Assembly: GCA_016791265.1 (NCBI GenBank)
Contig: JAEUMY010000013.1
Span: forward strand, 62,001-126,000
DNA length: 64,000 bases
DNA from: Betaproteobacteria bacterium
GTDB lineage: Bacteria > Pseudomonadota > Gammaproteobacteria > Burkholderiales > Usitatibacteraceae
Reading direction: 5' to 3'
The notes under the pieces are model-generated. The model made no database searches. It saw only the letters and a program-made list of their open reading frames with translations, and was not told the origin of the DNA. This document shows positions 58,456-64,000 of this stretch, piece after piece (the first letter of the stretch is position 1; every line of letters starts with the position of its first letter). Both the position numbers and the translations under genes were made by a program.

Positions 58456-59145
58456 ATGCGCCGCAACGCCAAGCGTCTCACCCTCATCGCATTCGTCGCG
58501 CTTGTCGCGCCACTTCTCTCCGGCTGCTTCACCCTGGCCGCCACCGGCATCGTCGCCACCGCCGTGTCGGTCGATGACCGCCGCTCCACCGGCTTCCAGG
58601 TGGAAGACGAGAGCATCGAATGGAAGGCCGCCGCCCGCATCCGCGAGCAGCACAAGGACACGCATGTCGTCGCCGTGAGCTACAACCTCTCCGTGCTGCT
58701 GGTGGGCCAGGTGCCGTCGGAGGAGGTGAAGAAGCAGGTCGAAGCCACCGTGCGCGGCGTGCCCAACGTGAAGAACGTCATCAACGAACTGGCCGTGGCC
58801 GGCAACACTTCGCTCGCCGCGCGCGGCAATGACGGCCTCGTCACCACGAACGTCAAAGCCCGCCTGATCGGCAACGGCAAGGTGTCGCCCAACCACGTCA
58901 AGGTTGTCACTGAGAACAGCGTCGTCTTTCTGCTCGGCATCGTCACCGAGGCCGAAGGCAACGCCGCCGCCGAAATCGCGCGCACGACCAGCGGCGTGGC
59001 CCGAGTGGTGAAGGTGTTCGAGTACATCGCAAAGGCACCCGCCGCCCAGCCCGCGCCGGCGCAAGCGCCAGCAACCGCGCCGGTGTCGTCGACCACGCCC
59101 GCCCCGGGCACCGCCGCGCCGGTGGCGACACCCATCAAGCCCTGA
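58456..59145 (+). CDS. dolP: BON-domain outer-membrane lipoprotein (DolP/OsmY type)
   Basis: A 229-residue lipoprotein. The lipobox LLSGC (Cys at about 24) follows a basic start (MRRNAKRLTL). Two BON domains follow (IREQHKDTHVVAVSYN to INELAV, and VKARLIGNGKVSPNHVKV to VFEYIAK), then an Ala/Pro/Thr-rich tail. DolP keeps the outer membrane tight and supports the BAM complex in E. coli. The ATG at 58456 has CGGAG before it. The rsmI-lpoA-yraN-dolP order matches E. coli, except that the SIS gene (diaA) usually found before dolP is absent. Confidence 0.92.
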   Translation: MRRNAKRLTLIAFVALVAPLLSGCFTLAATGIVATAVSVDDRRSTGFQVEDESIEWKAAARIREQHKDTHVVAVSYNLSVLLVGQVPSEEVKKQVEATVRGVPNVKNVINELAVAGNTSLAARGNDGLVTTNVKARLIGNGKVSPNHVKVVTENSVVFLLGIVTEAEGNAAAEIARTTSGVARVVKVFEYIAKAPAAQPAPAQAPATAPVSSTTPAPGTAAPVATPIKP

Positions 59146-60560
59146 TGGCCGCCGCCCTGCCGCCCGCGGCGGCCCAGGCGCTGCGGCAGGCCGTGCAGGC
59201 GTTGCGTGGCGACGCCGCCGCCGCCGCTCGGGCCGACGCAGTCCTCCAGTCGCTCGCCAGCCAGTTTCCGCAGAGCGCGGAGGTGCATTACGCGACCGGA
59301 ATGAGTGCGGCGATACGCGGCGACACCGCTGGCGCGCTCGCGGCGATGCAGCGGGCGCTTGAGCGTGACCGGGGCAACGCCGCGATCCACTTTCAGATGG
59401 GCATGCTGCTGGACCAGGCGGGCCGCTTTGACGAATCGCCGAAACGCTATCGCGACGCGTTGCGGCTCAATCCGCGGTTTCCCGAGGCGCACTACAACCT
59501 GGGCCTGGCCCTGTCGCAAGGCGGCGACACGGACGGCGCCATCCGCAGTTATCGTCAAGCGCTGGCGCAGCGACCCACGTTCCTCGAGGCGCTCAACAAT
59601 CTCGGCAACCTTCTGCAAGCGCAGGGCAAGAACGACGAAGCCATCCGTCTGTTTCGCGAAGCGATCCGGATTCGTCCTGACTTCGCCGTGCCTTACAACA
59701 ACCTCGGCAACTCGCTCGCGCGGATGAATCAGCGCGACGAGGCGGTGCGCGCGTTCGAGCAGGCCTTGGCGCTGGCGCCGCGCTTCGCCGAGGCGTTGCA
59801 GAATCTCGCCGAAAACCTGCAGGCGCTGGGGCGGCACGATGAAGCCGCGCAGAGGTTCGAGGCGCTGCTCGCCGTGCATCCGGAGAACGAGAACGCGCGC
59901 TTTGCACTGGCCGCGCTACGCCAGGAGCGCGTCGCCGCGGCGCCCGACACCTTCGTGCGGAAGGTATTCGACGATCTGGCGCCGCGGTTTGAATCGCATC
60001 TGGTCGAGACGCTGGGCTATCGCATCCCCCAGGAGTTGTTGGCCCTGTTGAAGCCGTGGCTGGATGCGCGTGGCAAGGTCGATGTGCTGGACCTCGGCGC
60101 CGGCACGGGACTATTCGGCCGCGAGATCAAACGCTGGGCCAAGTCACTGGCGGGCTGTGATCTTGCCGGCGCGATGGTGGAACGCTGCCGCGCCAGTGGT
60201 ATCTACGACCGTGTGGAGCAACTTGAGCTGACGCCTTTTTTGGCGAGCTTCGGCGACGGGAGCGCGGATGTCGTGGCCGCGACAGATGTATTTGTCTACG
60301 TGGGCGATCTCTCGCGAATATTCGCGGAGGTGGCGCGGGTGCTGCGGCCAGGCGGCCGCTTTGGATTTTCAGTCGAGATCGTTGACACGGGCGACTTCAC
60401 GCTGCGCGCGACCGGCCGATTCGCCCAGTCAAAGGCATACATCGAGAAGCTGGGCGCGGAGCACGGACTCACACTCACCGTCGCGGTGGACACGCCCATC
60501 CGCAAGGAGGCTGGGACGCCTATTCCGGGGTGGTTGGTGGTGCTCGAAAAGCGCGCCTAA
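59145..60560 (+). CDS. TPR-repeat protein fused to a SAM-dependent methyltransferase
   Basis: A 471-residue protein. The first 270 residues hold about seven TPR repeats (for example HYNLGLALSQGGDTDGAIRSY and NNLGNLLQAQGKNDEAIRLF). The rest is a class I methyltransferase (VLDLGAGTGLFG near 316, VVAATDVFVYVGDL, VARVLRPGGRFGFS). The substrate is unknown; the TPR part suggests a protein target. The ATG overlaps the dolP stop (TGATG). An iterated palindrome copy encodes RIFA. The stop and the SnoaL stop share CTAA (60557-60560). Confidence 0.88.
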   Translation: MAAALPPAAAQALRQAVQALRGDAAAAARADAVLQSLASQFPQSAEVHYATGMSAAIRGDTAGALAAMQRALERDRGNAAIHFQMGMLLDQAGRFDESPKRYRDALRLNPRFPEAHYNLGLALSQGGDTDGAIRSYRQALAQRPTFLEALNNLGNLLQAQGKNDEAIRLFREAIRIRPDFAVPYNNLGNSLARMNQRDEAVRAFEQALALAPRFAEALQNLAENLQALGRHDEAAQRFEALLAVHPENENARFALAALRQERVAAAPDTFVRKVFDDLAPRFESHLVETLGYRIPQELLALLKPWLDARGKVDVLDLGAGTGLFGREIKRWAKSLAGCDLAGAMVERCRASGIYDRVEQLELTPFLASFGDGSADVVAATDVFVYVGDLSRIFAEVARVLRPGGRFGFSVEIVDTGDFTLRATGRFAQSKAYIEKLGAEHGLTLTVAVDTPIRKEAGTPIPGWLVVLEKRA

Positions 60561-60979
60561 CCAAGCCTGCGCTTCAACCATCGCATGAGCGCGCCCACCA
60601 GCGGCAACTGCTCGTACAACTCGCCTGCCGCATCCCAGTAGTCGCGGTGCCAGCGCACGCGGCCATCCGGCGCCAGCTTCAAGAGCGACAGGCCGTGAAT
60701 CTTGCGAGTGAAATCGGGCTTGAGCCTTTTGATGCGAAAGGTGAAGTCCCAGGTCAGCACGACACTGTCGCCCTGCACCACACGCTCCAGGATGACGAAC
60801 TTCGGCTCGTGCATGGCGACGTACATGTGCGCGAAGATGGGGCGAATATTCGCAAGGCCATTGACCTCGTTGAAGGGGTCGCGAAAGTACGCATCCTCGG
60901 TGTAGAACTCGTTCATGCGCACGACTGAATCGGCGGTGAGCGTCTCGAAGTACGTCACCAGCTCATCGATCGTCTTCAT
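60557..60979 (-). CDS. SnoaL-like / NTF2-like protein
   Basis: A 140-residue protein of the nuclear-transport-factor-2 fold (MKTIDELVTYFETLTADSVV, YTEDAYFRDPFNEVNGL, WDFTFRIKRLKPDFTRKI). Such proteins are small isomerases, cyclases or binding proteins; the function here is unknown. The ATG at 60979 overlaps the SDR stop (ATGA), so it is translated with that gene. An iterated palindrome copy encodes ANIR. Confidence 0.87.
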   Translation of the reverse strand: MKTIDELVTYFETLTADSVVRMNEFYTEDAYFRDPFNEVNGLANIRPIFAHMYVAMHEPKFVILERVVQGDSVVLTWDFTFRIKRLKPDFTRKIHGLSLLKLAPDGRVRWHRDYWDAAGELYEQLPLVGALMRWLKRRLG

Positions 60980-61755
60980 CCCTTCACCGCCTTCCGCACC
61001 GCCGAGAAATAGAACCTGTACGGCAGGTGACGCAGGAACTTGAGCTGGCGGGTGAAGGCGCGCGGAAAGTGGATCTCGAAGTCGCCATCCTCGAAGCCGT
61101 CGATGATGCTCGAAGCCGCTTCCTCCGGCGTGATGAGGTGCGGCATGGTGAAGTCGTTCTGCGCCGTGAGCGGCGTCTTCACGAAGCCGGGATTGATCAC
61201 ATAGACATCCAGCCCGCGCGGCTGCAAATCGAGATACAGGGTCTCGGCCAGATTGATCAGCGCCGCCTTGGTCGGGCCGTACACCAGACTCTTGGGCAGA
61301 CCGCGATAGCCCGCAACACTGGACACCAGCGCCACGCCGCCTTTGCCCTGCTTCATGAGCTGCGGCACCACCAGCGAGAGACCGTTGTAGAAGCCGTTCA
61401 GGTTGATGTCGATCATGTTCTTCGCGACAGCGAGATCGATCTCCCACGCGCGCATGGCCTTGTAGTCGCCCGCCATGAAAATGGCGAGGTCGTAGCCACC
61501 CCAGGCGGCCACGAGCTTGTCATGCGCGGCGGTGAAGGTGTCCAGCTTCACGATGTCGAGCGGCAGGGCGATGCTGCGATCCGTGCCGTAACGCTTGACC
61601 ATCTCGTCAAGCGGTTCGGCGCGGCGGGCGGAGACGGCCACCTTCGCGCCCAGCGCGATCAGCGCATCAGCGAGTGCAGCGCCGATGCCGGTCGAGGCGC
61701 CGATGATCCAGACGCGGCGGTCTTTCCATTGGGAAATCGGTTTGTTGAGTGCCAT
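60976..61755 (-). CDS. Short-chain dehydrogenase/reductase
   Basis: A 259-residue classical SDR. The cofactor loop is GASTGIGAAL, the catalytic Ser is in LVSSVAGY and the Tyr-Lys pair in YGPTKAAL. IDINLNGFYNGLS carries the conserved Asn. The substrate is unknown. Operon neighbours (SnoaL-like, DUF3833, transporter) suggest a lipid-related task. Confidence 0.9.
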   Translation of the reverse strand: MALNKPISQWKDRRVWIIGASTGIGAALADALIALGAKVAVSARRAEPLDEMVKRYGTDRSIALPLDIVKLDTFTAAHDKLVAAWGGYDLAIFMAGDYKAMRAWEIDLAVAKNMIDINLNGFYNGLSLVVPQLMKQGKGGVALVSSVAGYRGLPKSLVYGPTKAALINLAETLYLDLQPRGLDVYVINPGFVKTPLTAQNDFTMPHLITPEEAASSIIDGFEDGDFEIHFPRAFTRQLKFLRHLPYRFYFSAVRKAVKG

Positions 61756-61761
61756 GCCGGG

Positions 61762-62280
61762 TCACCGCTTGCGGAAGAAAATCGTGATCTCGGCCAGATG
61801 CACACCGAACTTGGACATGCGCGTCTTGTTGCCCAACGTGTCCTTGTCGATGAGGTACATCCAGTCATCCATGTCGACGTGATAGGTCTTGCCGTCCACC
61901 GGCAGCGCCAGCACGTAGTTCCAGCGCAGCGCATTGCCGACCGCCTCGCCCGCCGCCGTGCCGACCACGTCACCCGCTGTGCCGCTGTAGCGGTCGCCAT
62001 CCTTCTTGATAGTCCAGATGCGTTTCTCGGTCTTGCCGTCGGACCACTTGAAGCTCTCGTCGAGTACGCCAGTTTCACCATTCCATTTGGCGTCGATCAC
62101 GACATGGAAGCGCCGCGTCACCTTGCCCGAGCGGTCCTGCACCATGCCCCAGCCATCGATGGTGCCGTTGAAGTATTGCTTCAGATCGAGCTTGGGTTGC
62201 TCGGCGGCATAGTCCTTGATGTTCACGCTCGCACAGCCCGACAACAGCAGTGCGAATGCCAATGCAAAGAGTCTCTTCAT
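61762..62280 (-). CDS. DUF3833 lipoprotein
   Basis: A 172-residue lipoprotein (lipobox LLSGC, Cys 16) of the DUF3833 family, with the pattern FNGTIDGWGMVQDRSGKVTRRF, SFKWSDGKTEKRIWTI and DDWMYLIDKDTLGNKTRMSKFG (read in parts). The family is linked in other genomes to operons that modify membrane fatty acids. Function unknown. The ATG overlaps the transporter stop (ATGA). Confidence 0.88.
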   Translation of the reverse strand: MKRLFALAFALLLSGCASVNIKDYAAEQPKLDLKQYFNGTIDGWGMVQDRSGKVTRRFHVVIDAKWNGETGVLDESFKWSDGKTEKRIWTIKKDGDRYSGTAGDVVGTAAGEAVGNALRWNYVLALPVDGKTYHVDMDDWMYLIDKDTLGNKTRMSKFGVHLAEITIFFRKR

Positions 62281-63581
62281 GGATTGTCCTTCGAAGGAGA
62301 AGTGAAAAAGGGCGAGCGCCAGAGCAGGAGCGCCGCCACGGCCTTCAGCATGCAGGGCAGCAGCGCATACACCGCGGCCAGCGCGGACAACACCTCCGCG
62401 GTGTGCGCACCCTTGGGCGCATAGCCCAGCCAGCCCAGGAGCGGCAGCGCGACGCCGGCAGCCAATGCGAGATTGCCCTTGGTGACGAGGTTCCACAGGC
62501 CGAAGTACGCGCCTTCATTGCGCCCCTTGCCAGCCCGCTCGTCGATGTCGATCACATCGGCCAGGATCGACGGCGGCAACGCCAGATCGGCGCCTAGACC
62601 CAGGCCGGACATGATGCAGATGATGAAGAACGCGGTCGCATCCCCCGGCCCCAGCAGGAAGGCCCAGACGAATGCGGCGATGGACAGGATCATCCCGCAG
62701 AACCAGGCGCGGCCCTTGCCGATGCGCGAGGACAGGCGAACCCACAGCGGCATGCCGGCGGCACCCGCGGCGAAATAGGCGATGAGGAATTGGGCGGTGA
62801 GATCAGGGCGCTGGATGGCATCCTCGATGAAGAACAGCACCAGCGTGGCGGGAATCGATGCGGCGATTCCGTTCATCACGAAAATCCACAGCAACGGGCG
62901 GAAGCTCGCGTTGCCGAACGGCTTCAGCATGACTGCGAATATTCGCTTCTCGTCGCTGACATGCGTGGTGACCGCGGGCGGCGACGACCGCATCATCACC
63001 AGCGCCAGGATGACGATGAGCGGACCGAACAGGTAGCTGAACTGCGCGAAGCCCGCACGGGCGCCACTGGCCTTGGACAAAATCTCCGGCAGCGCCGCCG
63101 CGAGGAACACGCCGATCAAGCCCAGCCCCTCGCGAAACGAGACGATGCGGGTGCGCTCGTTGGCGTCGGCACTCATTTCCGCGCCATGCGCCTGATAACT
63201 GATGGTGATCATGCTGTAGGCGGTGTAGACGACGAGCAGCATCATCACCAGCCACACCGACAACCCGGAGGGCGATAGATTTGGCGGGACGAAGAGACCG
63301 ATCATGCCGAGCGCCAGCAGCGGCGCGCCAACGCCAATCCAGACACCGCGTCCACGCCCGGACTGGCGGGTGCGGTCGCTCCAGTAGCCGAGCAGCGGGT
63401 CTTGCACTGCGTCGAACGCGCGCGCGAGCAGCAACAAAAAGCCGATGCTGGCGAGCGACAGACCCAGGGTGTCCGCGTAAAACTTGGGCACATGCACATA
63501 GATGGGCAGCGCCGCCATCGCGAGCGGCAGACCCAGGCCGCCGTAGGCGAGCAGGCTCGCGGCGCTATGCCGGGTCGTCAC
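62277..63581 (-). CDS. GPH/MFS-type transporter
   Basis: A 434-residue membrane protein with about twelve helices and the GPH-family (MelB-like) signature PLLGYWSDRTRQSGRGRGVWI (in part). Substrate unknown; the context suggests lipids or their precursors rather than sugars. The GTG at 63581 overlaps the stop of the next gene (GTGA). An iterated palindrome copy encodes RIFA. Confidence 0.85.
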   Translation of the reverse strand: MTTRHSAASLLAYGGLGLPLAMAALPIYVHVPKFYADTLGLSLASIGFLLLLARAFDAVQDPLLGYWSDRTRQSGRGRGVWIGVGAPLLALGMIGLFVPPNLSPSGLSVWLVMMLLVVYTAYSMITISYQAHGAEMSADANERTRIVSFREGLGLIGVFLAAALPEILSKASGARAGFAQFSYLFGPLIVILALVMMRSSPPAVTTHVSDEKRIFAVMLKPFGNASFRPLLWIFVMNGIAASIPATLVLFFIEDAIQRPDLTAQFLIAYFAAGAAGMPLWVRLSSRIGKGRAWFCGMILSIAAFVWAFLLGPGDATAFFIICIMSGLGLGADLALPPSILADVIDIDERAGKGRNEGAYFGLWNLVTKGNLALAAGVALPLLGWLGYAPKGAHTAEVLSALAAVYALLPCMLKAVAALLLWRSPFFTSPSKDNP

Positions 63582-64000
63582 TTGTTCCCCAGCAGGCGCT
63601 TGCGCAATCCAGGCTGACTGGTCTTTTCGGAGAGCCAGATGTCGAAGAACGCGCGCGCGAACTCGGGGTCGGCCACTATGGCGATGAACTTCGAGCGCGT
63701 GTAAAAGCGCGCCTCCTTGCCGGGCACGTGAATCCCGATCAGCGTGTCGCCGGGCTTGATGTCGGGGAAAATTCTCGCCATCTCGCCATACCAGCGGTTG
63801 AGCTTCTCTTCCGGTCCGTAGCCCTGGCCGCGCTTTTCATCAATGCTGCGCTTGGCGATGTCCGCGCCCTTGAAATTCATGTCGTACACGAGCTCCAGCG
63901 CGAAAGGCTGGTCTGCCGCGTAGCGGCCCTCCGGCGCCCAAAGACGGATGTCGTAGACCTTCATGCCGATGAAGCGGAAGCTGGTGTCGCCGACAATGGC
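63578..64000 (-). CDS. Chalcone-isomerase-like protein, C-terminal part (runs off window)
   Basis: 141 codons from the window edge to the stop. The visible part starts AIVGDTSFRFIGMKVYDIRL, which is inside the fold, so the true start lies beyond 64000; the ATG at 63964 is not the start. It matches the bacterial chalcone-isomerase-like domain (VYDMNFKGADIAKRSIDEKRG, IGIHVPGKEARFYTRSKFIA, in parts). No flavonoid role is likely; the fold also binds fatty acids. It is probably exported, but the signal peptide is outside the window. Confidence 0.8.
   Translation of the reverse strand, partial: AIVGDTSFRFIGMKVYDIRLWAPEGRYAADQPFALELVYDMNFKGADIAKRSIDEKRGQGYGPEEKLNRWYGEMARIFPDIKPGDTLIGIHVPGKEARFYTRSKFIAIVADPEFARAFFDIWLSEKTSQPGLRKRLLGNK

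Follow-up and report, generated by a model that had tools for sequence, protein, structure and literature searches.

A probable furan fatty acid operon with a UfaM-type methyltransferase at the edge of a Usitatibacteraceae genome window

What is made by the operon that runs off the end of a 64,000-nucleotide stretch of a betaproteobacterial genome? The stretch, here termed the window (Usitatibacteraceae; assembly GCA_016791265.1, contig JAEUMY010000013.1, C15:62001-126000), comes from a 3.94 Mb genome in 24 contigs that is 89.9% complete. Its last five genes, encoding SnoaL-like, SDR, DUF3833, GPH-type transporter and chalcone-isomerase-like (CHI-like) proteins, were assigned in an earlier note to a membrane-lipid modification operon. 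The window does hold the 3′-part of such an operon, and inspection of the adjoining DNA indicates that it is very probably an eight-gene operon for furan fatty acids. The families to which the Cfa-like, DUF1365 and FAD proteins encoded immediately upstream belong are those characteristic of UfaM, UfaO and UfaD, respectively, and lipid modification is therefore sharpened to furan fatty acid biosynthesis, a pathway which that note had not named.

With positions beyond 64000 numbered on from the window, the three upstream genes, all on the minus strand, are ufaM (UfaM-type CMAS/Cfa-like methyltransferase, 64210-65418), recognized from the open reading frames (ORFs) and Pfam matches of the next stretch, ufaO (DUF1365, 65415-66176; PF07103, 1.8e-77) and ufaD (FAD amine-oxidase-type protein, 66176-67453; PF01593, 4.6e-23). 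A cfa-like, a DUF1365 and an FAD oxidoreductase gene had been predicted to lie past 64000, and all three are present in the same run. The operon does not stop at the CHI-like gene, nor is the next 10 kb devoid of lipid genes, as a gap of 26 bases separates the CHI-like start from the next lipid gene upstream. The CMAS and DUF1365 genes overlap by 4 bases and the DUF1365 and FAD genes by 1 base. Upstream of ufaD there is a divergent intergenic region (67454-67691) and the gene beyond it, encoding a ferritin-like protein designated FERR, is divergent; the run therefore consists of eight tightly packed, same-strand genes in the order ufaD-ufaO-ufaM-CHI-GPH-DUF3833-SDR-SnoaL.

The five window genes are also on the minus strand and encode a CHI-like protein with an N-terminal signal-like stretch (63578-64183, crossing the window edge at 64000; PF16036, 2.7e-10), an MFS_2/GPH-type transporter (62277-63581; PF13347, 5.3e-79), a DUF3833 lipoprotein (61762-62280; PF12915, 1.9e-69), an SDR oxidoreductase (60976-61755; PF00106, 3.4e-37) and a SnoaL-like, NTF2-fold protein (SnoaL_2, 60557-60979; PF12680, 5.2e-15). 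Sequence and Pfam matches bear out these genes and positions as first given, together with the 4-base overlaps at SnoaL/SDR (ATGA), DUF3833/GPH and GPH/CHI and the 6-base gap at SDR/DUF3833. A convergent TPR-methyltransferase gene (59145-60560) overlaps the 3′-end of the SnoaL-like gene by 4 bases, and the operon therefore ends with SnoaL.

The furan pathway itself has already been worked out in other bacteria, and the operon described here appears to be a well-preserved example. Furan products were documented by genetics and gas chromatography-mass spectrometry in Rhodobacter sphaeroides and Rhodopseudomonas palustris (PMC7380195). In R. sphaeroides, RSP1091 (UfaD), RSP1090 (UfaO, DUF1365) and the Cfa-like UfaM (RSP2144) are reported to be required for the methylated furan fatty acid 9M5-FuFA and, together, to be sufficient for its synthesis in vivo; the R. 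palustris homologues are RPA2571 (UfaD), RPA2570 (UfaO) and RPA2569 (UfaM). According to the same report, the acyl chains are modified on phospholipids and the furan oxygen comes from O2 (PMC7380195). Halomonas ufaM, ufaD and ufaO are consecutive, and Halomonas UfaM is reported to generate 11-methyloctadec-12-enoate in Escherichia coli (PMC12089945). If the proteins encoded here function as do these homologues, UfaM would methylate, in an S-adenosylmethionine-dependent reaction, the cis-vaccenoyl chains of membrane phospholipids to give 11Me-12t-18:1, UfaD would desaturate this to 11Me-10t,12t-18:2, and UfaO would close the furan ring with O2 to yield 9M5-FuFA, which is regarded as a scavenger of oxidants.

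Features that may separate UfaM from a cyclopropane synthase lie in the active site. The protein belongs to the same CMAS family as E. coli Cfa, with 34% identity over 356 residues, and has Ser157, Glu258, Glu261, Ala262, Gln288, Ile290 and Tyr344 at the positions compared, with Ser157, Ala262 and Gln288 replacing Cys139, His240 and His266 of Cfa. The catalytic bicarbonate of E. coli Cfa is reported to be held by Glu239, His266 and Tyr317 (PMC11387697). The full set of ligands is not present here, Glu261 and Tyr344 being retained and His266 replaced by Gln288. The same residues are present in five further copies, from Azoarcus, Paracoccus, Azospirillum B510, Roseicitreum and Cupriavidus (the first of its two copies). 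In the alignment, Gln takes the place of His266 in 78 of the 79 operon copies and Ala that of His240 in 77, whereas 21 of 23 CMAS proteins encoded apart from such operons, including E. coli Cfa, have His at both. The two exceptions are L225, the genome of which has DUF1365 on a different contig, and L217, from genome G063. In a maximum-likelihood tree that took in 35 of the 79 operon copies, these 35, together with 12 linked copies and the exceptions L225 and L217, fall into a single clade (support 100/100) that does not include E. coli Cfa. The linked group has Gln at position 266 in 11 of 13 cases, Arg in one and His in one; the Arg (L231_8) and one Gln (L231_3) are from a seemingly broken Azospirillum thermophilum locus, and the His (L227_3) belongs to a second CMAS group. 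At this A. thermophilum locus, on a plasmid (L231, 8813-10029), the annotation contains only a short methyltransferase stretch.

The second group consists of distant CMAS-type methyltransferases encoded beside some ufa clusters (18 ORFs, for example L078:5534-6586 and L039:14495-16090). These are likewise united in a clade of their own (support 100/100). Both His240 and His266 are retained in all 18, with Phe at 268 and, as a guess, the proteins could be FufM-like enzymes that participate in dimethyl furan synthesis.

Based on these residues and the clade, cyclopropane synthesis is probably not the role of the Cfa-like protein, and the replacement of Cfa His266 and His240 by Gln and Ala may alter the catalytic base such that a methyl-branched alkene, rather than a cyclopropane, is released. 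Among the papers listed in a literature search on the UfaM enzyme and bicarbonate there was, to judge by titles, none on the subject. Where UfaM and true Cfa proteins both carry a cyclopropane synthase annotation, inspection of these positions may quickly tell one from the other.

An ordinary cyclopropane fatty acid operon, in which the CMAS protein makes cyclopropane acids and the remaining genes are loosely linked envelope genes, is very improbable. Pfam and NCBIfam do call the protein a CMAS or cyclopropane synthase, with NCBIfam scores far below the cut-offs (275.6 versus 600 and 238.5 versus 400), and cyclic acids are reported to have been detected also in E. coli expressing Halomonas ufaM (PMC12089945). 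Against such a role are the loss of both Cfa histidines, the separate clade and the tight linkage to UfaD and UfaO. The label cyclopropane fatty acid synthase, under which this gene was expected in the earlier note, should be given up, as the residues and the clade indicate that it most likely encodes a UfaM-type methyltransferase. Tms/Bfa systems for 10-methyl-branched fatty acids also combine a methyltransferase of the CMAS type with an FAD protein (PMC7791843), which in such a system here would reduce a methylene intermediate, but it is very improbable that the operon is of this type. The 10-methyl methyltransferases described in that report were chosen for a conserved Cfa bicarbonate site, a site that is not conserved here, and Tms/Bfa genes with the FAD protein form a two-gene operon (PMC7791843), as opposed to eight genes with DUF1365 as the constant partner.

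Furan fatty acid synthesis is also consistent with how often the genes recur together. DUF1365 is present in 37 of 61 relatives and in 78 of 274 genomes of the class. From these, the genomes of 33 of 36 relatives and of 47 of 77 members of the class (own genome apart) were fetched, with fragments, short contigs and most lower-scoring matches dropped, giving 81 loci with that of the genome under study added. As the loci were selected for DUF1365, the presence of UfaO in all 81 is a given; nearby there is a UfaM in 80, UfaD in 78, SDR in 49, DUF3833 in 47, SnoaL in 46, the GPH transporter in 45 and the CHI-like protein in 33. The complete set of eight occurs at 24 of the 81 and, for the 19 loci from the same family (that of the genome under study among them), at 16; it is therefore more than a chance association. 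UfaD has 39-52% identity to the proteins encoded at the corresponding position of five named loci, RSP1091 not being among them. The core order ufaD-ufaO-ufaM is that of RPA2571 to RPA2569 in R. palustris (PMC7380195), with further operon genes following here. R. sphaeroides, as described in the same report, has five genes, RSP1091 to RSP1087, with ufaM (RSP2144) detached, whereas here there are eight genes with ufaM inside the operon. Plasmid pAZKH of Azoarcus sp. KH32C (NC_020548, L234) carries all eight genes in an identical arrangement.

The names SnoaL and chalcone isomerase could also suggest secondary metabolism. There are no polyketide genes among the annotated neighbours and, as the genes recur with UfaDOM, this assignment was dropped.

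Several observations weigh against the assignment to furan fatty acids. The case is built from sequence, with the identity and active-site comparisons made only with proxies from Rhodobacterales and Rhodospirillales rather than with the characterized R. sphaeroides and R. palustris proteins. His266 is kept in one operon copy, and the Gln copy L217 comes from a genome that lacks DUF1365. Single deletions of RSP1087, RSP1088 and RSP1089 are reported to leave the fatty acid profile of R. sphaeroides unchanged (PMC7380195), and neither a promoter nor a regulator was identified for the operon.

The five window genes would not be expected to be needed for furan lipid synthesis itself. As a guess, their products may bind, move, repair or detoxify furan lipids or the oxidation products of these lipids, with the CHI-like and DUF3833 proteins probably located outside the cytoplasm. 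The nearest solved relatives of the transporter are MelB (71.5 bits) and the lysophospholipid symporter MFSD2A (67.7 bits). Based on an alignment with E. coli MelB, Asp55, Asp59 and Lys377 of MelB, which we take to be the cation site, correspond to Asp57, Asp61 and Lys368 and are conserved in all 44 operon transporters compared. Asp19 and Asp124, presumably the sugar-binding residues, correspond to Ala21 and Thr126 and are kept in none of the 44. The transporter is therefore probably cation-coupled and not a melibiose-type sugar carrier. The lipobox Cys of DUF3833 is present in all 15 sequences aligned, and the AlphaFold model (pLDDT 91.5) has ten antiparallel strands. The top fold match is a designed barrel (Z 15.9), and other matches, with Z about 9.5-15.7, include BFA1, a DUF3598 protein, the spirocyclase OssO, nitrobindin and fatty-acid-binding proteins. 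These matches to the model support a calycin-like barrel but do not identify a ligand.

Within a furan fatty acid operon, these genes might form a salvage and repair unit, in which MFS_2, like MFSD2A, imports lysophospholipid derived from oxidized furan lipids, with the CHI-like and DUF3833 proteins as carriers of the acyl chain and SDR and SnoaL as enzymes that remove reactive products. The rank of MFSD2A among the nearest solved relatives, the pattern of MelB residues kept and lost, and a modelled barrel like those of ligand-binding proteins fit with this scheme. The MelB and MFSD2A scores are, however, about equal, so that a special affinity to MFSD2A is not established, and a common barrel fold reveals no ligand. 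For every accessory gene, two fifths or more of the 81 loci lack a copy and, as noted above, the single deletions in R. sphaeroides had no reported fatty acid phenotype. In this detailed form, the scheme is unlikely. A further proposal, that UfaM-type proteins are a distinct CMAS branch in which the changes of His266 to Gln and His240 to Ala divert ring closure to a methyl-branched alkene and that the accessory half is a salvage and repair unit, is possible but remains on the doubtful side. If true, many proteins labelled 'cyclopropane synthase' would be recognizable, by a simple sequence mark, as enzymes of furan lipid synthesis.

Clusters of this type had been expected sometimes to include an RpoE-ChrR pair. 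This holds in general, as ChrR scores above the cut-off in 9 of the 274 class genomes and in all 9 is located 1.2-5.8 kb from DUF1365; matches at E ≤ 0.001 occur in 80 of the 274, the 71 below the curated cut-off not being counted. On Azospirillum, Paracoccus and Qingshengfaniella plasmids, ChrR, annotated in Paracoccus only as 'anti-sigma factor', and a sigma factor are encoded upstream of ufaD on the opposite strand. It does not hold for the genome under study, in which, as a difference from the R. sphaeroides and R. palustris systems, no ChrR was found (no TIGR02451 match at E ≤ 0.001). A neighbour more common than ChrR is a MerR-B12 protein (LitR/CarH type, by Pfam), present at 23 of the 81 loci and at 36 of 102 when loci selected for FERR are added, three of the 102 being repeats of loci in the 81. 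Azoarcus sp. KH32C has a divergent MerR regulator beside ufaD, where the ferritin-like gene is located here. A light-inducible ufaM cluster in Pseudomonas also groups UfaM with genes for an FAD oxidoreductase, an SDR and hypothetical proteins and is reported to be controlled, with phrB, by a class II LitR (PMC9758184), and in Vibrio cholerae the response to blue light is reported to be shared by ChrR and a MerR protein (PMC5241685). In the genome under study, in contrast to Pseudomonas, a search for LitR/CarH homologues revealed none at E ≤ 1e-20, and the only B12-binding_2 domain is in a 1285-aa frame that, guessing from length, is most likely methionine synthase. With 10% of the genome missing, the absence of both ChrR and LitR/CarH is likely rather than proven. 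The furan pathway would then be present in a betaproteobacterium for which a search for both known controllers was negative, and synthesis must therefore answer to something else or be constitutive.

A search of L002:9300-9800 revealed no match to a sigma-70-like promoter (no scan for extracytoplasmic function sigma factor motifs was made), and no motif shared by the upstream regions of the family was apparent by eye. In some close relatives, a TetR-type regulator is encoded divergently upstream of ufaD (L043:11333-11989, in a cluster of 7 loci of which 2 are repeats) and TGACTAACTGGTCAC-like repeats are visible by eye in the sequence there. There is no TetR-type regulator beside the operon described here.

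The divergent gene upstream of ufaD (67692-68552; L002:9693-10553) encodes a ferritin-fold, diiron-type protein with EEQKH and DEARH motifs. FERR is highly conserved, with 67-80% identity to 13 members of the family and order, and the best matches to the model of a relative's FERR are stearoyl-ACP desaturases. Among 61 genomes, 24 have both FERR and DUF1365, 5 only FERR, 13 only DUF1365 and 19 neither, and in 20 of the 24 relatives with both, the two genes are within 10 kb. An rfaE2-like cytidylyltransferase gene is located ≤0.8 kb from FERR in 81 of 97 loci, and this also holds for 52 of the 59 at which there is no ufaD close by. In 22 of 49 searched genomes in which FERR has no nearby ufa gene, DUF1365 is present elsewhere. 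FERR was considered as a ninth, oxygenase-type member of the operon and left out; with the rfaE2-like gene as its more constant neighbour, the link of FERR with the furan operon may be positional.

In seven Pandoraea loci (L150, L165, L175, L179, L180, L186 and L188), CHI-like and SnoaL-like genes are located next to the diiron gene with no ufaDOM nearby, and in six of these seven, DUF1365 is present elsewhere in the genome. CHI-like and SnoaL-like genes can, therefore, stand apart from the ufaDOM core. Other recurrent neighbours at the 102 loci encode glutathione peroxidase (17), FolE2 (12), a membrane fatty acid desaturase (12), DUF2878 (12), lipocalin (9) and the photolyase-related DPRP (9).

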